Positions 9,856 to 32,091 of a stretch of 38,203 bases of DNA are shown piece by piece. The position numbers and the translations under genes are program-made. The stretch's first letter is position 1. The number at the start of each line of letters is the position of its first letter. The DNA lies in IMG/VR virus record IMGVR_UViG_3300025978_000025, positions 1-38,203 of that record; one strand, given 5' to 3'. The stretch is from a virus. Under the pieces are notes generated by a model. The model had not been told where the DNA came from and did not search any database. It was given only the letters and a program-made list of their open reading frames with translations.

Positions 9856-10007
9856 GCCCGGCGATTCTTGTCACGTCCGTCGTGGCAGCCGTTGTCACGC
9901 TGGCGCTCATCGGCGTGGACATCTACTGGGCCGCTGACCACGTGCGAGGCAACACCCTGTCCGAGGTGCTGCGCTACTGGGGCGAGCGCTACAAACTCAT
10001 CGCGTAG
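9852..10007 (+). CDS. Tiny single-TM membrane protein, 51 aa
   Basis: ATG 9852 overlaps the stop of the spanin-like gene (ATGA). Residues 4-26 form one membrane helix (AILVTSVVAAVVTLALIGV), followed by an amphipathic tail (TLSEVLRYWGERYKLIA). It is likely part of the lysis unit, but no family is recognised. Its 3' end overlaps the 3' end of the minus-strand gene at 9989 by 19 bases. Confidence 0.55.
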   Translation: MSPAILVTSVVAAVVTLALIGVDIYWAADHVRGNTLSEVLRYWGERYKLIA

Positions 10008-13632: not shown

Positions 13633-13788
13633 CGACCGCGACCGCGACCGCGACCGAGACCGCGACCACGACCGCGACAGCGACCACGACAGCGACAGCG
13701 ACAGCGACCACGACCGCGACAGCGACCGCGACATCGACCGCGACCGAGACAGCGACAGCGACCGCGACAGCGACCACGACCGCGACAA
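13633..13788. repeat. Hexanucleotide array, 26 units of CGACNN
   Basis: On the plus strand the unit CGAC plus two variable bases (mostly CG, AG or CA) repeats 26 times without phase loss, over 156 bp, apart from two units that begin AGAC. It lies in the 270-bp gap between the genes starting at 13550 and ending at 13821. All three frames of both strands read as low-complexity peptide (Arg-Asp, Ala-Thr, Val-Ala), and none has a convincing start, so I treat it as non-coding. Its CGCGAC core is also the core of the 12-bp array at 23179. Confidence 0.9.
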
Positions 13789-14164: not shown

Positions 14165-15346
14165 CTAGTCTTCTCCGGGCTCTCGCGCTGGTTCACCCGT
14201 GATCGATGCATCCTGTTCCCTTTGCTTTTTCTCGTATGCCTCCTTGGCGATCTCGTGATCGCCGTTCTTGAGCATCCGCATCAGCGTCTGCAACCCCATG
14301 CGCTCGTTCACCGTCTTGGCGTTGGCGATGGCTGCGAGCACCTTGGTCAGCGGTGTTTCGACCTCGCCTGTATCGGGGTCGTGTGGTGGCTCTTCGACAG
14401 GTGTCGGGGCCTGCTTCGCTTTCCGCTTAGACATCAGCCTCTCTTTGATCGTGGCCGTCGCCGGTTGCGGAGCTTCTTCAGGAGCATGGGTTCCGTCCTC
14501 GATCGGGTGAAACTCGTCAGCGATAGCCTCTTGCTCTTCGTCGGTCTCGTCGGCTGGCGCCGTGAGCATCGCGCGGTAGCTGCGGTTGAGCTCTGCCACC
14601 TCGCCGACAAGAGTACCGCGCATCTTGGCCGACTCGAGCGCCGTGCGCTGGGCGTCGAGAACGTCCTTGGCCCGCAACTCAATGTGCGCGCAGTATACGG
14701 TTGATTTCTCCGTTTTCACGGGCTGAACAACAAGGCACAGCGGCAATCCTTGCAGCATTCCGGTCATCTTTTTGATTTGCAGCAACGACCCGATGATGCG
14801 GCGGATCGTGATGATCGACGTGGTACGGAAAGTGTAAATGGCGCCGGCCACCGCGAGACCAGGAACAGCTATCGAGCAGTAGAGGGTTGCGTGTGGCTTG
14901 CACGACGCCCCGCGCTTGTCATCACCGTCCGACAGGAACGGGCACGGGCACGTCATCTGCTTTGATTCACCCGTGCGCGTCATGATCCCGTTGTCTCCCT
15001 TGACCAGTTCCCATCGCTCGGCTGTCTGACCGTCGCCCGAGCAATGGAGCTTCTTTCCGGCGTAGCGCGCATACTGAGTCGGGAACACCTCATCAATCTC
15101 GTCGCTGTGTAGCACGATGGGTATCGACCTGAGCTTTCTGTCAGGGTCGTGCGGAAGGGATCGCATCAGTTCTTCGTCACGCACAAGGTCTCCCGCAGCG
15201 TCGCGGTAGGTCTTGGTGATGGCGAAGTCGTCATACTTGACCGGCTGTCGGTAGACGGTTCCAGATTGAGACCTGCGCTCTTGGCCCAGGCCTCCGAGTT
15301 TGATCTTTCCGGTTTCGGCTACGCTGGGGATGATGCCGTGAATCAT
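14165..15346 (-). CDS. Gp3/recombination-directionality-factor-like zinc protein, 393 aa
   Basis: ATG 15346 overlaps the exonuclease stop by ATGA and follows AAGGAC. The N-terminal half has the features of the phage Gp3-like/RDF family: an early GKIKLGG, then CPCP followed by ASCKPHATLYC, a presumed zinc site, then FRTTSIITIRRI and GMLQGLPLCLVVQPVK. The C-terminal 130 residues are acidic and low complexity (DETDEEQEAIADEF, PEEAPQPATAT) with a charged helical end. In phiC31 the homologue switches integrase direction, but no integrase is seen here and the gene sits where a RecT-like annealing protein usually sits, beside an exonuclease. Confidence 0.6.
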   Translation of the reverse strand: MIHGIIPSVAETGKIKLGGLGQERRSQSGTVYRQPVKYDDFAITKTYRDAAGDLVRDEELMRSLPHDPDRKLRSIPIVLHSDEIDEVFPTQYARYAGKKLHCSGDGQTAERWELVKGDNGIMTRTGESKQMTCPCPFLSDGDDKRGASCKPHATLYCSIAVPGLAVAGAIYTFRTTSIITIRRIIGSLLQIKKMTGMLQGLPLCLVVQPVKTEKSTVYCAHIELRAKDVLDAQRTALESAKMRGTLVGEVAELNRSYRAMLTAPADETDEEQEAIADEFHPIEDGTHAPEEAPQPATATIKERLMSKRKAKQAPTPVEEPPHDPDTGEVETPLTKVLAAIANAKTVNERMGLQTLMRMLKNGDHEIAKEAYEKKQREQDASITGEPAREPGED

Positions 15347-16332
15347 TTGATGTCCTTGATTTTTACCCTCAGCGACCTGCTGGCGGGCGGTGTGTACGTG
15401 TACTGCGCGATGACGTTGTCGGGGACGTTCAGGCTCTCGACAATCGCCTTGTAGTCGACCTTCGGACGGTAGTGCGTTGCGCCGTAGCTGATTACCCACC
15501 CATCGCCACGGACCCCTTCATGGTCACCGATCAGCTCAATCAACCGCATCTTGGCGGTCTTCTCGCGCGTTTCGGCCTCAACCTTGTCGAGACGTGCCGC
15601 CTCTTTCTCGATGGCCAGATCTTCGATCTCGGATGTTGGCTCGGCAAGACCAGCAGTAGGGACCGGGTGCAGCATCAACAGGTTGTCGAGGTCGCGCGGG
15701 TCGGTCGCGGGCGGAGCTTTGTCGGCAACCACATAGTCTCTATGCCAGCGGGCCGCGTCCTCGAGCAAGGCGCCCTCGAATTCCTCGTCACGCCGGACGT
15801 AGTAGAGTCGAAACTCGAACTTGTACCCACCTACAAGTACAGGAACTAGACAGGTGTCGACCTCGGGCCAGTGGATCAGATGCCAGTGCGACTGCACCAG
15901 AGCCCCGGGGTGAATGTCGTCGGTGCCCTCCTCGCCGTAGTGCTTGGCGACGCCACCGGATACGGTTTTACCCTCGCCGATGTACCTGATGACCGATGGA
16001 GAAACAGCAGCCGCATCGGACGAATTCGCGGACATGGACGGCCCGACATAGACCGCGTCCGCGCTGTCGCCAGCCCACGCATGACGGGGGTGCTGTCGAA
16101 ATGGGGCCGGACGAAGATCAAGCATCAGCTCTTCGCACGGGTACTCCAGAACAAGTCGCTCAAGAAGGTTCCCACGCTCCATCGCCTTCGTGGTCTCCGT
16201 CGGTGGCAGCTTTCCCGTGACCCGCATCAACGCGTCTAGCGGCGTCATGTTAGGGTTGAGCCCCAACGCACCGGCAACGATGCTGGAAGTCATCTTGCCC
16301 TTTCGGGCGGCTACCTGTTCTGCTGTCAGCAT
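15343..16332 (-). CDS. YqaJ-type viral recombinase exonuclease, 329 aa
   Basis: The N-terminus has the YqaJ/lambda-exonuclease-like entry KMTSSIVAGALGLNPNMTPLDAL, then MERGNLLERLVLEYP (the Gx(L/I)xE region), AGDSADAVYV with the catalytic Asp, and an EGK motif at about 122, matching the D-ExK core of PD-(D/E)XK nucleases. A Q-rich HPGALVQSHWHL follows. The C-terminal helix region is Lys/Glu rich. It should degrade one strand of dsDNA ends to give 3' overhangs for annealing. ATG 16332 is favoured by the TCGAGGG site. Confidence 0.8.
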   Translation of the reverse strand: MLTAEQVAARKGKMTSSIVAGALGLNPNMTPLDALMRVTGKLPPTETTKAMERGNLLERLVLEYPCEELMLDLRPAPFRQHPRHAWAGDSADAVYVGPSMSANSSDAAAVSPSVIRYIGEGKTVSGGVAKHYGEEGTDDIHPGALVQSHWHLIHWPEVDTCLVPVLVGGYKFEFRLYYVRRDEEFEGALLEDAARWHRDYVVADKAPPATDPRDLDNLLMLHPVPTAGLAEPTSEIEDLAIEKEAARLDKVEAETREKTAKMRLIELIGDHEGVRGDGWVISYGATHYRPKVDYKAIVESLNVPDNVIAQYTYTPPASRSLRVKIKDIK

Positions 16333-20651: not shown

Positions 20652-21074
20652 ATGGCGCGGGGTAGCTCAGTGGTAGAGCCGGAGTCTCATAAACTCCATG
20701 CCGCTGGTTCGATTCCAGCCCCCGCAACCATCCCCACCGAGATACAGGAGTGCGTCGCTCTCGTGAGGTGGATGCTCTCCCGCGGCATCATCTTCATGCA
20801 TGTTCCCCTGGAGTCCGTGCGCTCACAGCAGGGGCGCGCCATCCAGAAGGCGATGGGTGCATCCAAGGGATTCCCTGACTACATCATCATCACCAAGGCG
20901 CCACTCAGACCAGAGGCCCGCGGGATATTCATCGAGATGAAGCGGAGACGTGGTGGACGTGCGTCCGCAGAGCAGGGCCACTGGATATCGATGCTTCTAG
21001 ATAACGGGTGGCAAGGAGCAGCATGCAACGGCGCACGGGACGCTGTCGAGTTCTTGAAGGGTCTTGGGTTTTGA
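20652..21074 (+). CDS. VRR-NUC nuclease with a tRNA gene inside its first codons
   Basis: The conserved domain covers PTEIQECVALVRWMLSRGI (motif with Glu and Gln), MGASKGFPDYIII (GxPD), FIEMKRRRGGRASAEQGHWI (ExK and QxxW) and a C-terminal LLDNGWQGA, the VRR-NUC pattern. This places the active core after the tRNA. ATG 20652 begins 1 base after the preceding stop, as other coupled starts do, but the next 75 bases are the CAU tRNA. The downstream GTG 20763 has AGGAG at 10 bases but would drop the EIQ motif. The true start is undecided. Role: PD-(D/E)XK nuclease in replication or recombination. Confidence 0.7.
   Translation: MARGSSVVEPESHKLHAAGSIPAPATIPTEIQECVALVRWMLSRGIIFMHVPLESVRSQQGRAIQKAMGASKGFPDYIIITKAPLRPEARGIFIEMKRRRGGRASAEQGHWISMLLDNGWQGAACNGARDAVEFLKGLGF
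20656..20730 (+). tRNA. tRNA with CAU anticodon, initiator-like C1/A72
   Basis: All arms fold: acceptor CGCGGGG pairs with CCCCGCA except position 1 (C1 x A72), D arm GCTC/GAGC, anticodon stem GGAGT/ACTCC with loop CTCATAA (CAU at 34-36), T arm GCTGG/CCAGC with loop TTCGATT, and an encoded 3' CCA. The C1-A72 mismatch is the initiator (fMet) hallmark, but the anticodon stem lacks the three G-C pairs and position 11-24 is C-G, elongator-like. The CAU anticodon could also belong to Ile2 (with lysidine) or elongator Met. Confidence 0.9.
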
Positions 21075-22469: not shown

Positions 22470-24122
22470 CTAGGTCTCAACAACAGGGTTGTATTCGCCA
22501 GGTTCGATTCCAAACGTCCACGCAACCGCATCATCGGCCGTGCGTACATCGGGAGGCACTCGCAGGAAATACGTTTTACGTTCACCGCCTGGCTCGGGAG
22601 TCGAGTTCAGTACCTCAACCATCTGTATTGGCTCATCGTCGATAACCTCCTTGCGCCATAGCTTTCCGCGCGACGATTCATTGACTTTGGTTGCTCCAGA
22701 GTCTTTGAGATAACGAGAGATGCCGCACTGCTCGATCATCACGCGTCGGATCTCGGCGTTACGCTCGCTATCGATCGACGCGCACGTGATTGATTCAGGT
22801 CTCTCAATTATCCACGCCGGTACCCGCACCCCATGGACCGCATATAGCGCTGACCCATCGCGCCACCTGCAAAATGGTCCCGTCGTGCAATGTGGTCGAT
22901 TGCGATCATCAACGAGCAACGTATCGGGTCGATCCGAAACCATGCAGAAATCGGCGTGCATTATGCGCGGCCCGGAGTGCAATGACGCCTGTTCCCAGTG
23001 CCGCCACGCCTCGTACTCGAGGAGGTCTAGGCCAACGACACGGTCGAAGAACGACAAAAACGAATCGTACGACGACCACTGATTTCCTCCTTGCCACATT
23101 CGCCATGCCTCCTTGGCGCACATCCATCCACCAGCAGATAGGTGTGGACGACTACAGACATACCACTCAGACTCACGAGTCGCGGCAAGAGTCGCGTCAG
23201 AAGTCGCGGAATCGGTCGCGGAATCGGTCGCGTAATCGGTCGCGGCACGAGTCGCGTCAAAAGTCGCGTCAGAAGTCGCGCCACGAGTCGCGGCACGAGT
23301 CGCGTCAAAAGTCGCGTCAGAAGTCGCGCCAAGAGTCGCGACACGAGTCGCGGAATCGGTCGCGTCAAAAGTCGCGACAAGAGTCGCGTAATCGGTCTCG
23401 GCAGAAGTCGCGGCGTCGGTCGCGGCACGAGTCGCGGAATCGGTCGCGGCAGAAGTCGCGGAAGAAGTCGCGACAAGAGTCGCGTCACGAGTCGCGGAAT
23501 CGGTCGCGTAATCGGTCGCGGCAAAAGTCGCGGCAAAAGTCGCGTCAGAAGTCGCGGCGTCGGTCGCGTCAGAAGTCGCGGCAAAAGTCGCGACAAGAGT
23601 CGCGGCGTCGGTCGCGGCACGAGTCGCGGAATCGGTCGCGGCAGAAGTCGCGGCAGAAGTCGCGACAAGAGTCGCGTCACGAGTCGCGGCACGAGTCGCG
23701 GAATCGGTCGCGTAATCGGTCGCGTCAGAAGTCGCGGCAAAAGTCGCGTCAGAAGTCGCGGCGTCGATCGCGTCAGAAGTCGCGGCAAAAGTCGCGACAA
23801 GAGTCGCGGCGTCGGTCGCGGCAGAAGTCGCGGCGTCGGTCGCGGCACGAGTCGCGTCACGAGTCGCGGCATTGTCCCTGCGACACCACCACCACCACGC
23901 CGCTTCTCCCCCAGCGAAACGCAAGACGAACGGGCTGGGCACGAAAACAATGGCTTTCGGAAGAGGCAGGCCTGCGGCTCTGTATAACCCAAGGATCGAC
24001 ACACGGGTTGCCTCCCGATCCTCGTCAGTCATTGGACGCGTCGACATCGCATTAGCAATCCACTTGTCCCGCCACGCCGGGATTTGGGCGCGGTGCTCCT
24101 CGGTCAAAATGTATTTTTTCAT
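22470..24122 (-). CDS. DUF6745-like protein with 4-residue AT repeats, 550 aa
   Basis: The N-terminal 80 residues (VSILGLYRAAGLPLPKAIVFVPSP) and the C-terminal part (FSDRPDT-like, PAWIIERPESITCASIDSERNAEIRRVMIEQCGI, RYLKDSGAT, VEVLNSTPEPGG-RKTYFLRVPP, AVAWTFGIEPGEYNPVVET) match the DUF6745 family as I remember it. Between them, about residues 83-315, is a 4-residue repeat ATxx (DAATSAATLVAT...). Relatives have VxxQ-type repeats at this place, so the repeat is expected though its residues differ. No function is established. ATG 24122 overlaps the preceding stop. The stop abuts the helicase stop. Confidence 0.75.
   Translation of the reverse strand: MKKYILTEEHRAQIPAWRDKWIANAMSTRPMTDEDREATRVSILGLYRAAGLPLPKAIVFVPSPFVLRFAGGEAAWWWWCRRDNAATRDATRAATDAATSAATDAATLVATFAATSDAIDAATSDATFAATSDATDYATDSATRAATRDATLVATSAATSAATDSATRAATDAATLVATFAATSDATDAATSDATFAATFAATDYATDSATRDATLVATSSATSAATDSATRAATDAATSAETDYATLVATFDATDSATRVATLGATSDATFDATRAATRGATSDATFDATRAATDYATDSATDSATSDATLAATRESEWYVCSRPHLSAGGWMCAKEAWRMWQGGNQWSSYDSFLSFFDRVVGLDLLEYEAWRHWEQASLHSGPRIMHADFCMVSDRPDTLLVDDRNRPHCTTGPFCRWRDGSALYAVHGVRVPAWIIERPESITCASIDSERNAEIRRVMIEQCGISRYLKDSGATKVNESSRGKLWRKEVIDDEPIQMVEVLNSTPEPGGERKTYFLRVPPDVRTADDAVAWTFGIEPGEYNPVVET
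23179..23874. repeat. 58-unit 12-bp repeat within the DUF6745-like gene
   Basis: The plus-strand unit GTCGCG plus six variable bases (often TCAGAA, GCAAAA, GCACGA, GAATCG) repeats 58 times in exact 12-base register over 696 bp. On the minus strand it codes the ATxx tetrapeptide. The constant part is CGCGAC when read on the coding strand, the same core as in the 13633 array. Confidence 0.95.
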
Positions 24123-25878: not shown

Positions 25879-28767
25879 ATGACCCGCGCCGCCGATGTCC
25901 TCCTCAGACTCGAAGGTGTTCGCAAATCAGGATCGGGGTGGTCGGCTAAATGCCCGGCCCACGAAGACCGGCGCGCAAGCCTAAGCGTCACCGAAACCGA
26001 CAACGGCGAGCTGCTGATGCACTGCCACGCGGGCTGCTCGTTTGCGCAGATCCTCGAGGCGATTGGCGGGCCGGTCAAATCAGATGGAAGGCCAACAACC
26101 AAGATGCCTGAGCCTTCGGCCCCCAAGGTCTACACCGGGCCGCTGGACGCGGCACTGACCGTGACGCGCGCTGCCGGAAGCCACATCACGGGCGAGTGGA
26201 CCTACCGAGATGCCAAGGGCGAAGTCGCGTTCATGGTCTACCGGTTCGACGACGCCGACGGGAAGACGTACCTGCCGGCGTCGCCAGTGGACGGGGGGTG
26301 GACGATATCTCTGCCTCCAGACCCAAGACCGCTCTACCGCCTACCCGAGCTGCTGGCGTCCAGTGGAACCGTCATTGTCGTTGAGGGCGAGAAAGTAGCC
26401 GACGCCGCGGTGGCACTAGGGCTCAACGCCACCACATCCCAGGGCGGCGCCGACGCTTCATCGAAATCCGACTGGTCTCCTCTCGCCGGCCGCGATGTGG
26501 TCGTCTTCCCGGACAACGACCCCCCCAACAAGAAAACTGGTGTCCGACCAGGGATCCGGTACGCGAAAGCCGTCGCCAAAACTCTTGCCGCGCTCACCCC
26601 TCCAGCCAACGTCAAGATCGTCGAGATACCCGGGCTACCACTCAATGGAGACCTTTTCGACTACGTGGCACAACAGCGCATCCTTCGCGTCGGAGACCAG
26701 CAGATCCGCGAGTACATCGAACAACTCATCTCCTCAGCATCACCCCCCAAGACCTTCGCCGAGGAGCTCTCCGTCGGGCTGAAGCGCGACCCGGGCCACG
26801 CCTGGGAGCGCATTGATCAGATCACCGAGGTGTTCGCGTCCAAGGACCGCGCCGAGTGGACGCGCGTCGCCCGCGTGTTGCGCAAAGAGGGCTTGCTCAA
26901 GGACATCGAGCTCGAAGCCCGCAAGCGCACCGGCAAGGTCAAGCCGCTGCGCGCCATCGATGGCGGCGGCGAGCCACGCGCCCAGGACGCCGTGCTCTCG
27001 GTCCTCCCCGACGCGCCTGTCCCCGAGGAGGCCAAGGTCCCCGACGGCTGGGTCCTGCTCGCGGACTCTGACAGCGGAAAGCCTGCCCTGCAACGACTCG
27101 TAGCCAAGAAAATCGACGGCCAGGACGCCGTGATCCCCATCCCAGTGGCGCACAACCCAATCGTGATCTCGGCATGGCTGGCCAACCGGTCGACGGGCGG
27201 CAAGATGCTCGAGGTGTCCTGGCGCGCCGGCGGCAAATGGCACTCGCGCGTAGCCCCGCGCGAAAAGCTCATGGCCGCCCAACAGATTGTTGCCACGCTG
27301 GCGACGCACGGCTTCCCTGTGTCGAGCAACAACGCCCAAGACCTCGTAGCCTACCTGTGCGACTACGAGCGCTGCAACGTGCGACACGCCATCCCCGTGC
27401 GTAACTTTGCCGACCATCTTGGCTGGCAGCCTGATGGTGGGTTCATTGTCGGCTACGAGCGCATCGGTTGCGCTGAGACCGTGTTTCAGGGCGCAGACGG
27501 CGGCGATCAGGCAGTCGCCGAACGATTCCACGCTCGCGGGACGTTCGACGGCTGGCGCGCTGCGGTATCTGTGGTTCGCCAGTGGCCCAAGGTCGAGCTC
27601 GCACTCTATGCGTCTCTGTCCGCACCCCTGCTCGAGATGCTGCGGGCCCCGAGCTTCGTCATCGACTGGGCGGGTGGCAGTTCCACAGGAAAGACCACCA
27701 CCCTGTGTGTCGGCGCCTCGTGCTGGGGTGTGCCCGATGAGCGCGATCCCCTGTCGCTTGTCGTCTCGTGGGCGACAACCGATGTTGGGATTGAGCGTTA
27801 CGCAGCACTCCTCGGCAGTTTACCGTTGTTCCTCGATGAGTCGAAGCGCGCCAAGGTCGTCGGTGGCAAATCCATGGCCCCGGAGATCATCTACGCCCTG
27901 GCCAACGGTCAAGGCAAGGCCCGCGGCAGCAAGACCGGACTCCAATCCGTTCGCCATTGGCGCACCGTCGTGCTGACGAACGGCGAGCAGTCTCTCATCC
28001 GCATGAGTCGTGACGGCGGACTCGCGGGCCGTGTCCTGACGCTATGGGGATCACCGTTTGGCGGCTTCAACCCTGCGGTGGCCGGGCTCACGCGGTCGCT
28101 GTCAGAGCACTACGGCCACGCCGGGCCCGCATTCGTGCGCTGGTTGGTAGACCACCGCGACAAGCTCCCCCAGTGGCAGGCCCGCCTAAGCGAGCTGGAG
28201 GCCATCTACACGGTACGCCTCGACCACGCCGGAAGCGGCGCTCCGACGCGCCTGGCGACCTACCTAGCGACTTTGGAGCTATGCGCCGAGCTCGCCCATC
28301 CGGCGCTCTCGTTCCCGTGGATCTACGTATCCCCCATCTCGAGATGCTGCGACGAGATTGCGGGCAAGTCGGCGGCTGTTGATCGCTCCAAAGAGGCTCT
28401 AGATTGGGTGTTCTCGGTGGCGGTGGCCCACCAGGCCGAGTTCTGCGGGCGGCATTACGGGTCTGACGAGAGTGTTGAGCGGTCTCCGTCGCGAGGTTGG
28501 GCTGGCGTATGGTCAAGTGGCGATAGCTGGGATTCGATCAAATTCCTACCATCCTGGCTCGAAAAAACACTCACCGATGGAGGCTTCGATTACGACTCTA
28601 CGGTGCAACATTGGGCCGACAAAGGTCTCTTGATCTCGAGCGGAGACCATTCAAGGCGCCAACTAAAAACAAGTATTGACGGAATCAAATGCTGGACGGT
28701 GGCCTTAAAGCGATCTGCGTTCCCCACAGAAGACACCGATGGGAACCAGATGGATTTGAAAGTATAG
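25879..28767 (+). CDS. Primase-helicase: CHC2 zinc finger, Toprim and DUF927 ATPase, 962 aa
   Basis: An N-terminal zinc finger CPAH (25-28) with CHAGC (49-53) matches CHC2-type primases. A Toprim region follows: VIVVEGEK near 165-172 with Glu, and FPDNDP near 210-215 with Asp. A helical linker leads to a DUF927-type helicase/ATPase domain: Walker A GGSSTGKTTT near 599-607, then a hydrophobic strand and acidic LFLDESKRA. The C-terminus has a helical tail. ATG 25879 has no clear Shine-Dalgarno. Family knowledge: it lays primers and unwinds DNA at an origin, as P4 alpha does. The iteron region directly follows. Confidence 0.93.
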   Translation: MTRAADVLLRLEGVRKSGSGWSAKCPAHEDRRASLSVTETDNGELLMHCHAGCSFAQILEAIGGPVKSDGRPTTKMPEPSAPKVYTGPLDAALTVTRAAGSHITGEWTYRDAKGEVAFMVYRFDDADGKTYLPASPVDGGWTISLPPDPRPLYRLPELLASSGTVIVVEGEKVADAAVALGLNATTSQGGADASSKSDWSPLAGRDVVVFPDNDPPNKKTGVRPGIRYAKAVAKTLAALTPPANVKIVEIPGLPLNGDLFDYVAQQRILRVGDQQIREYIEQLISSASPPKTFAEELSVGLKRDPGHAWERIDQITEVFASKDRAEWTRVARVLRKEGLLKDIELEARKRTGKVKPLRAIDGGGEPRAQDAVLSVLPDAPVPEEAKVPDGWVLLADSDSGKPALQRLVAKKIDGQDAVIPIPVAHNPIVISAWLANRSTGGKMLEVSWRAGGKWHSRVAPREKLMAAQQIVATLATHGFPVSSNNAQDLVAYLCDYERCNVRHAIPVRNFADHLGWQPDGGFIVGYERIGCAETVFQGADGGDQAVAERFHARGTFDGWRAAVSVVRQWPKVELALYASLSAPLLEMLRAPSFVIDWAGGSSTGKTTTLCVGASCWGVPDERDPLSLVVSWATTDVGIERYAALLGSLPLFLDESKRAKVVGGKSMAPEIIYALANGQGKARGSKTGLQSVRHWRTVVLTNGEQSLIRMSRDGGLAGRVLTLWGSPFGGFNPAVAGLTRSLSEHYGHAGPAFVRWLVDHRDKLPQWQARLSELEAIYTVRLDHAGSGAPTRLATYLATLELCAELAHPALSFPWIYVSPISRCCDEIAGKSAAVDRSKEALDWVFSVAVAHQAEFCGRHYGSDESVERSPSRGWAGVWSSGDSWDSIKFLPSWLEKTLTDGGFDYDSTVQHWADKGLLISSGDHSRRQLKTSIDGIKCWTVALKRSAFPTEDTDGNQMDLKV

Positions 28768-28931
28768 TAAGTATACAACCACAAACTAGCCCATGCGGTT
28801 CCCCTGTGTTGGTGTCGGTTCCCCCTAACGGGGAACCCCAAAAAACAGCTCAAGTACCCGATAGTAATAGTAAATTTGACAGCGGTTCCCCAGTTCCCCG
28901 TGTTTCCTCTGTGGAGGGTCACCCTATACGC

Positions 28932-28964
28932 GATCACGCGAGAGGTGATCACGCGATCACGCGA
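28932..28964. repeat. Three GATCACGCGA repeats inside the origin region
   Basis: GATCACGCGA begins at 28932, 28947 and 28955, the last two overlapping by two bases. They lie between the two clusters of GTTCCCC iterons, and may be a second kind of protein-binding site. Confidence 0.7.
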
Positions 28965-29263
28965 GAGTGGGTCACAAGCAGTGGTTCCCGTGACGCGTAT
29001 ATATTTCAAGGGGAACTAGGGGAACTGTATGGTATAAGTATATCTATATATCTAATATATATAAGCAAATGCAGTTCCCCAATGCAGTTCCCCATGCGGT
29101 TCCCCGTAATCAGGAGTGGGAACCGCTACGGTTTGCCTGTCGGCGCATCCGACAATCACGCCGTTATCGAGATCGTGGTGAGCTACAGTGATTTGCATTT
29201 CCCTGCGTGATGTGGCACAACGCCTATCGTGAGCTATCGAGATCAACCAACGTCATCGAAGTT

Positions 29264-29320
29264 GCCAACCCGGCTCGCCGCCACGGTAGCTCACACTCCT
29301 CACCGGCGGGTCGGGTTGGC
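29264..29320. other. Long-loop inverted repeat before the gene at 29341
   Basis: GCCAACCCG at 29264-29272 is the exact complement of CGGGTTGGC at 29312-29320, separated by 39 bases. It could form a stem or bind a dimeric protein upstream of the plus-strand small-gene run. Confidence 0.4.
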
Positions 29321-29340
29321 TGTACCATGCGGGGAACGTG

Positions 29341-29784: not shown

Positions 29785-30207
29785 ATGAAAAACGGTGAGC
29801 TGTTGAGCGATGCAAAGGATGCAAATCAGGAAAATGCAGCAGACAACCTAACGAACGAGCAACGCGACAAGCTGGCGCCGCCACCGCAGCCGCAAGCACC
29901 GTCATCGGGGACTTCACTGCCCGACCCGCGTCCGGCCCAACCACCACAACCCCAAGCCCCGCCTGACTGGTTCGACGTGCTCCTGGGCGGCCTGTTTTTT
30001 CTCTACCCGCTCTCGGTAATCAGGCCTCAGACGATCCATGCCTGGTGGGGATATCTCCGGCACCTTCCTCAGGTAGCGCTGTCCATCGCCTTCCGTTCGG
30101 CTCCCACCAACTGTGACCACGGAACCGTGCCCAGTGCCGAGCTCGTGCGGCGGTTGGCGGAGCAGTGGCTCCGGGAACAGTCGGCGCGCAAGGCGGATGC
30201 CCCATGA
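29785..30207 (+). CDS. Pro/Gln-rich membrane-associated protein, 140 aa
   Basis: ATG 29785 follows GGAG and directly succeeds the 29782 stop. The N-terminus is polar, then a Pro/Gln repeat (PPPQPQAPSSG and PPQPQAPPD), then a hydrophobic segment WFDVLLGGLFFLYPLSVI, and a charged C-terminal helix (AELVRRLAEQWLREQSARK). Not recognised. Confidence 0.5.
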   Translation: MKNGELLSDAKDANQENAADNLTNEQRDKLAPPPQPQAPSSGTSLPDPRPAQPPQPQAPPDWFDVLLGGLFFLYPLSVIRPQTIHAWWGYLRHLPQVALSIAFRSAPTNCDHGTVPSAELVRRLAEQWLREQSARKADAP

Positions 30208-31291: not shown

Positions 31292-31481
31292 GTTGGTGTT
31301 ATGGTTTGATGCGGCGGCGGTGCTGTGTATCGGTATTATCGCCATTATTCTGGTCGTGTATGTGTTGGTTGTTGCGTTGGCGTATGCTGCTGCTTCGGTG
31401 TTTTTGGTGATGGTGTATGGCGCTCGCGCGGCGGAATTCATGGCGAAGATAGCATCTAGGGTGAGCGACTATGACGGGTAG
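31284..31481 (+). CDS. Small membrane protein, 65 aa
   Basis: ATG 31284 overlaps the preceding stop by 8 bases. Residues 6-46 are almost wholly hydrophobic (DAAAVLCIGIIAIILVVYVL, then ALAYAAASVFLVMVYG) and may form two membrane passes. Function unknown; not the main holin candidate by position. Confidence 0.55.
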   Translation: MSELVLWFDAAAVLCIGIIAIILVVYVLVVALAYAAASVFLVMVYGARAAEFMAKIASRVSDYDG

Positions 31482-32091
31482 CAAAACCACCGAAGACCAG
31501 AAGAATAAACCAATCCTGAAGACCATCGATGACCTGCGCCCGGCAGACTACAACCCTCGAAAAATAAGCCCGCGTTCCGCTGCTGCCCTTTCGAAATCAA
31601 TTGGCGATTTCGGTGATCTGTCCGGCGTCGTCTGGAATCGGCGGACGGGAAACCTCGTATGCGGCCACCAGCGAGTAGCCGAGCTACGAAAATTGGGTGC
31701 GCAGCTGATAGATGGGGATCTTCAGATCGTGAGTGGCGAGCGGTTTGCAGTACGTATTGTCGACTGGCCCATCGTCAAAGAAAAATCCGCCAACGTGGTG
31801 GCCAACAATCCATCTGTCGCGGGAGAGTTCACCCCCTCTGTAGATGCCGTTCTTGACGAGATCATGGCTGGTATCGGGCAGCAGGATTATGATGCCTTGC
31901 TCCTTGGTGATGCGCGCGTCGGGGCAGACAAGCTGGGAGCCGCAGAACTCAAAGAATGGGACGCCAGCGAGCTGTCGCTTGACGGGATGTTCATCTTCAC
32001 GGCGCCGATTGAGGTGCAGGCCAAGGTTCGAGCTGTCTTGGAACGCGAGTTCCCTGGCGTAAAATTCCGCGAGGAAGTCGTCTATGGCTAA
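31471..32091 (+). CDS. ParB/Srx-domain protein, 206 aa
   Basis: The opening IDDLRPADYNPRKISPRS then AALSKSIGDFGDLSGVVWN and GNLVCGHQRVAEL matches the ParB/sulfiredoxin-like N-terminal domain. The remainder is a helical region with no visible HTH and no typical ParB C-terminal dimer domain. Such proteins neighbour methyltransferases and terminases in phages. It is unlikely to read parS by itself. ATG 31471 overlaps the preceding gene. Confidence 0.8.
   Translation: MTGSKTTEDQKNKPILKTIDDLRPADYNPRKISPRSAAALSKSIGDFGDLSGVVWNRRTGNLVCGHQRVAELRKLGAQLIDGDLQIVSGERFAVRIVDWPIVKEKSANVVANNPSVAGEFTPSVDAVLDEIMAGIGQQDYDALLLGDARVGADKLGAAELKEWDASELSLDGMFIFTAPIEVQAKVRAVLEREFPGVKFREEVVYG

Follow-up and report, generated by a model that had tools for sequence, protein, structure and literature searches.

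Organization of the locus

The window, by which we mean the whole stretch of DNA analysed here, is a virus record of 38203 bases. It harbors a gene for a primase-helicase of 962 aa and, directly 3' of this gene, an ordered array of short repeats (iterons) with the following parts:

25879..28767, + strand: primase-helicase, predicted initiator (Rep), 962 aa (Pfam, PHROG and structure matches)
28719..28725, + strand: outlying iteron GTTCCCC, within the 3' end of the gene (heptamer count)
28798..28824, + strand: left outer iterons at 28798 and 28818 (heptamer count, layout map)
28830..28836, - strand: left inverted singlet iteron, 55 bp start to start from the left doublet (layout map)
28838..28884, no strand: left arm gap, 62% AT (base composition)
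28885..28899, + strand: left central iteron doublet at 28885 and 28893, spacing 8 bp (heptamer count, layout map)
28900..29009, no strand: central spacer of 110 bp, 46% AT, with three GATCACGCGA sites and the degenerate iteron 28984 (base composition)
29010..29025, - strand: right central iteron doublet, inverted, at 29010 and 29019, spacing 9 bp (heptamer count, layout map)
29027..29073, no strand: right arm gap, 79% AT, with a TATATA stretch; candidate unwinding element (stability, composition)
29074..29105, + strand: right triplet of iterons at 29074, 29087 and 29099, the first 55 bp from the right doublet (layout map)
29118..29127, - strand: degenerate right iteron GGGAACCGCT (motif and layout map)
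29331..29337, - strand: outlying iteron abutting the next predicted start codon (heptamer count, ORF list)

The initial annotation had described twelve heptamers in both orientations, far above chance, and this was confirmed: exact copies of GTTCCCC/GGGGAAC number 15 in the window on both strands, 12 of them within 28719-29337, while shuffling of the whole window gave a mean of 4.25 and a maximum of 11. Only three copies lie beyond the array, which is about the chance number. In the 700 bp around the stop codon of the gene GGGGAAC is found 12 times, and the top heptamer did not exceed 4 in 200 shuffles. On the + strand GTTCCCC starts at 28719, 28798, 28818, 28885, 28893, 29074, 29087 and 29099, on the - strand at 28830, 29010, 29019 and 29331; degenerate copies join the array at 28741, 28984 and 29118, and several copies share a 5' extension of the motif, ATGCRGTTCCCC. 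The outermost copies, 28719 and 29331, are separate from the ordered core. The three GATCACGCGA sites reported previously are indeed present, at 28932, 28947 and 28955, and are absent elsewhere on the + strand of the window. GATC was not significantly enriched in the array (6 against 3.8 expected, with up to 11 in other regions).

In the heptamer-enrichment scan of the window itself the array is outscored by a coding tandem repeat at 23200. The gene at 22470-24122 (- strand) encodes a 550-aa protein with a DUF6745 domain and a long low-complexity repeat (runs such as ATDAATSAAT), seen in the DNA as a 12-bp unit in about 58 copies at 23178-23871. Another repeat, the hexamer CGACCG in about 26 copies, occupies 13633-13786 within an open frame of 253 aa that has no match in PHROG.

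The predicted initiator protein

The 962-aa protein has a primase-like N-terminal region (residues 24-267 match phage primase families in PHROG), a DUF927 MCM-like helicase at residues 410-687 (Pfam, 1.1e-42) and, at residues 838-944, the HTH_56 domain of the 'Cch helix turn helix' family (Pfam, 6e-7). A sequence search of solved structures with this protein retrieved the SaPI protein 8tch (5e-31), by its description a SaPIbov1 replication initiator that has helicase activity, and SCCmec Cch 5dgk (8.6e-15). The same two were found by Foldseek with the predicted structure, which covers the last 600 residues at a mean pLDDT of 75.5 (8tch 7.6e-28, Cch 8.3e-24), whereas D5-type and MCM helicases reached only about 1e-5 to 1e-4. 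A SaPIbov1-type initiator is recognised by a DUF927 helicase fold with a C-terminal HTH and by short iterons directly 3' of its gene, and both are found in the window.

The protein had been called P4-alpha-like in the initial annotation, and as a family assignment this did not hold. P4 alpha carries D5_N, DUF5906, Pox_D5 and the TIGR01613 P4-family primase, while the window protein has neither D5_N nor TIGR01613. Judged by the sequence and fold matches to 8tch and Cch and by the absence of P4-family domains, the protein is a DUF927/Cch-type initiator and not a member of the P4-alpha family.

A peptide-pattern search of viral and genome contigs gave no close homologue of the whole protein (identity above about 32%), and likewise none for the Streptomyces query. 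No DNA similarity of the window to phages was found.

Iteron arrays beside related initiator genes

Relatives of the protein were collected by tblastn from phages and plasmids, and viral contigs were added. Those chosen by protein are phages, plasmids and a SaPI-like element, 22-31% identical to the window protein. For each of them we determined, blind to the motif of the window, which heptamer is most over-represented across the 700 bases where the DUF927 gene ends. In most relatives this stretch holds an iteron array that outscores every control window from that locus; four loci (L016-L019) have theirs about 1.5-2.6 kb farther downstream.

The Streptomyces virginiae plasmid NZ_CP108092 (L031) carries the identical heptamer GGGGAAC in 14 copies. 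The iteron is GGTAACT in Streptomyces pFP4, GGGAACT in the SaPI-like PT1028 (AY954948; form given as AGTTCCCG), GGTAACCG in Thermoanaerobacterium THSA-485A and AGGTGAAAC in FP_Epona, and the Geobacillus and Pseudomonas plasmids have cores of different sequence (TGTCACA, GCTAGCA). The PT1028 Rep is nearly identical to that of SaPIbov1, the C-terminal domain excepted. We sought in the alignment a simple code linking the HTH residues to the iteron sequence and saw none. The initial annotation would have abandoned the origin if the heptamers were not conserved in relatives with homologous primases; the idea survived this check. Its statement that the iteron and its arrangement are not known has to be corrected, as GTTCCC iterons accompany SaPIbov1-like Rep, the Streptomyces plasmid and many phages.

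A common dyad layout

The repeats are not only abundant, they are also regularly spaced. Their positions relative to the stop codon are given below, with '>' for GGGGAAC on the coding strand:

Window: 31< 51< 63> 118< 126< [217<] 243> 252> 307< 320< 332< 350>
NZ_CP108092: 83< 95< 106< 120> 173< 181< 284> 292> 327< 338<
FP_Epona: 6< 22> 34> 46> 92< 101< 209> 218> 264<
PT1028: 3< 12< 23< 47> 90< 99< 196>

The window has a near-perfect dyad, in which the singlets 63> and 307< each lie 55 bp from their own doublet; the order is singlet, about 55 bp, doublet, about 110 bp, inverted doublet, about 55 bp, inverted singlet. We defined the core as inverted doublets with copies 7-10 bp apart and 70-130 bp between the doublets. 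This core is present in 18 of 32 loci, many of them mutually related, and when gaps and orientations were shuffled per locus it appeared in 1.10 on average and in 5 at most (2000 trials); the layout was nonetheless seen in most of the divergent groups. The repeat layout is common to many unrelated phages and plasmids.

The heptamers might instead be operators through which a phage repressor or activator acts on the flanking genes, and form no origin at all, as the array is intergenic and the copy at 29331 abuts the next start codon. However, beyond the array the window holds only about the chance number of heptamers, and many elements whose neighbouring genes are unrelated show arrays of like layout after their DUF927 gene. 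We consider an operator function very improbable.

Blind search with the dyad core

Viral contigs were then searched with the dyad core only, GTTCCCNNNGTTCCCN{85,115}GGGAACN{2,3}GGGAAC, and no protein information was used, although the pattern was derived from the window and NZ_CP108092 and the layout grammar was first defined on loci chosen by protein. Together with a stricter heptamer pattern, the core pattern yielded 54 viral loci, while far below one locus is expected in random sequence (our estimate). A DUF927 helicase is encoded at 25 of the 54 loci, in 14 clusters at 50% identity. In 20 of these 25 the DUF927 gene is followed on its 3' side, within 300 bp, by the core, which starts 5-201 bp past the stop codon where gene orientation was measured; the remaining five have the core upstream of the gene or at the gene end. 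Two DUF927 loci (L253 and L259) have the dyad about 3 kb upstream of the gene end, thus 5' of the gene and not 3'. The DUF927 protein nearest to that of the window among the blind loci (L264) is 30% identical over 651 aa. Control contigs with three spaced heptamers and no dense cluster encoded DUF927 in 0 of 50 cases, and contigs with mostly densely clustered heptamers in 5 of 21.

At several of the remaining loci other initiators end beside the core: VapE-like primase-polymerases (L261, L244, L289), a DUF7146-Toprim protein (L267) and an AAA_25 protein (L256). The first of these loci reads 2< 12< 23< 35> 78< 87< 178> 186>, with nearly the spacing of PT1028. More broadly, the VapE-type primase-polymerases L261, L263, L272, L281 and L285 have a layout almost identical to that of PT1028, and their helicase family is unrelated. 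In a separate group of contigs (L053, L054, L061, L091, L124, L142, L147, L154) a DUF7146-Toprim primase gene has 11-16 copies of GTTCCCC at its 3' end, and in some members the open frame continues through the array.

It could be that unrelated initiators (DUF927, VapE-PrimPol, DUF7146-Toprim, P4 alpha) share an origin code, consisting of the dyad geometry and a GG(N)AAC-like core, which is dictated by the footprint of a pair of facing hexamers and not by helicase descent; we put this a little short of an even chance. The geometry would comprise two doublets with copies 8-9 bp apart, inverted relative to each other and separated by about 80-120 bp, each with a singlet about 42-55 bp to its outer side. 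If such a code exists, the DNA sequence by itself could be enough to call origins.

The presence of the GTTCCC dyad beside VapE-PrimPol, DUF7146-Toprim and AAA_25 proteins could also mean that the origin is genuine but read by another factor, the host DnaA or another phage protein, with the helicase merely recruited. However, the DnaA boxes TTATCCACA and TTGTCCACA were not found on the strands searched, the iterons differ among DUF927 loci yet remain beside the gene, and SaPI Rep recognises its origin through its own C-terminal domain (PMC7581432). Recognition by another factor is thus unlikely.

Candidate melting site, GC skew and phage context

The AT-rich TATATA stretch amid the heptamers, noticed at the outset, was verified at about 29025-29072, where the DNA of the record is least stable: the least stable stretches are 40 bp from 29025 and 60 bp from 29002 (6.1 and 5.4 standard deviations). 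Most DUF927 loci have an AT-rich spacer between their central doublets, with 68-80% AT in genomes of moderate GC, compared to 46% in the window. In the window iterons do flank the AT-rich stretch, yet it lies in the right arm and not in the central spacer, and the window is a useful exception because of this. Some GC-rich relatives (L264, L253 and L259) likewise have a central spacer that is not AT-rich. We infer that the DNA of the window melts at the right arm. Cumulative GC skew, which had been suggested as a check, has its minimum at 30132, about 1 kb from the array, and its maximum at 9986; the minimum fits an origin near 29-30 kb, but the signal is confounded by gene direction.

Among viruses sharing the terminase, 34 of 35 have no match to the helicase and one has a weak N-terminal match, though many of them may be incomplete records. 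As the terminase relatives do not share the replication gene, the replication module appears, from these sequence matches, to be a mosaic acquisition. The record also encodes, at 14165-15499 (- strand), a protein matching the Gp3-like recombination-directionality-factor family, beside a YqaJ recombinase, and a tRNA-Met gene at 20656-20730.

The protein encoded at 31471-32091, 2.1 kb away from the array, has a ParB-like match (phrog_620), and the array might be its partition (centromere-like) site. This is extremely unlikely, as Pfam detects no ParB domain in the protein and the dyad tracks the DUF927 initiator across relatives, including the SaPI-like element.

The proposed origin

The best explanation agrees with the initial proposal of an iteron-type origin read by the adjoining primase-helicase: very probably the array is the replication origin of this phage, of the SaPIbov1/DUF927-Rep type, and immediately follows its initiator gene on the 3' side. 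Computation established the array and where it lies, which domains and fold the protein has, and that the layout recurs near homologous helicases. By analogy with the work on SaPI and SCC elements, the C-terminal HTH of the primase-helicase would bind the GGGGAAC iterons, and ATGCGGTTCCCC duplexes are the predicted binding target of the C-terminal domain (about residues 830-962). The inverted doublets 28885/28893 and 29010/29019, with the arm singlets, would seat two oppositely facing helicase hexamers; the AT-rich DNA would then melt, and the hexamers would load onto single strands and travel apart in bidirectional replication, with the fused primase domain priming both forks.

The regular spacing leads to testable predictions on the placement of two self-loading hexameric helicases at an origin. 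The loci found here place this origin type in both phages and plasmids, across several groups of bacteria, and the DNA-only signature picks out origins of this kind, together with their initiators, in viruses from metagenomes. The literature searched, which did not include two SaPI origin papers, described neither the quantified dyad nor a search that uses it as a signature, and no priority is claimed.

Comparison with known systems

SCCmec Cch (5dgk) combines the DUF927 helicase with HTH_56 as the window protein does. Membership in NCBIfam Cch1 (NF047345) was rejected, the window protein scoring 61.6 bits, far below the equivalog cut-off of 700.

The P4 alpha/ori system also pairs a primase-helicase with repeats, annotated as type 1 repeats GGTGAACAG. 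The P4 ori has three iterons, an inverted singlet and a doublet with spacings of 10, 11, 22, 43 and 10, and its order of orientations is the mirrored left half of PT1028 (spacings 9, 11, 24, 43, 9). The crr lies 3' of alpha, like the array of the window, but the ori is distant from alpha, unlike in the window. P4 alpha differs in its D5/P4-family helicase, and hhalign detected no homology of the DUF927 HTH to the C-terminus of P4 alpha (probability 0.5%) or of VapE, though the C-terminal domains of the window protein and P4 alpha may be related at the level of fold. With a P4-like repeat layout and no C-terminal homology, the origin is therefore P4-like in outline while its initiator is not of the P4 family. 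The P4 ori type 1 repeats (L241, 4291-4590 and 9310-9413) have their triplet, inverted singlet and doublet spacing in common with the DUF927 origins.

Faecalibacterium phage FP_Epona and Thermoanaerobacterium phage THSA-485A share with the window a CHC2-type primase fused to DUF927 and an array 3' of the gene, and FP_Epona has the same inverted-doublet dyad. They differ in their iterons, and FP_Epona in its AT-rich central spacer; the iteron orientation of THSA-485A is unreadable because its core is palindromic. In NZ_CP108092 the 14 identical heptamers are directly 3' of the DUF927 gene, with inverted doublets of 8 bp spacing and 103 bp between them, but the bifunctional primase/polymerase is a separate gene, the identity is 29% and the spacer sequence is another one.

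SaPIbov1 Rep-ori has the same DUF927 helicase fold and iterons directly 3' of rep, and the SaPIbov1-like PT1028 has the same GTTCCC core with left outer iterons, inverted singlet, doublet, spacer and inverted iteron. In contrast, SaPIbov1 Rep is only 22-23% identical over the aligned protein and has no primase, which is fused in the window protein; additionally, the central spacer of the window is not AT-rich and holds the GATCACGCGA repeats. A PICI, a satellite without full virion genes, was rejected as the mobile element, as the record encodes a terminase large subunit and a P22-like portal. The element is a tailed phage, to which the window would thus extend the origin type known from staphylococcal satellite islands (SaPI).
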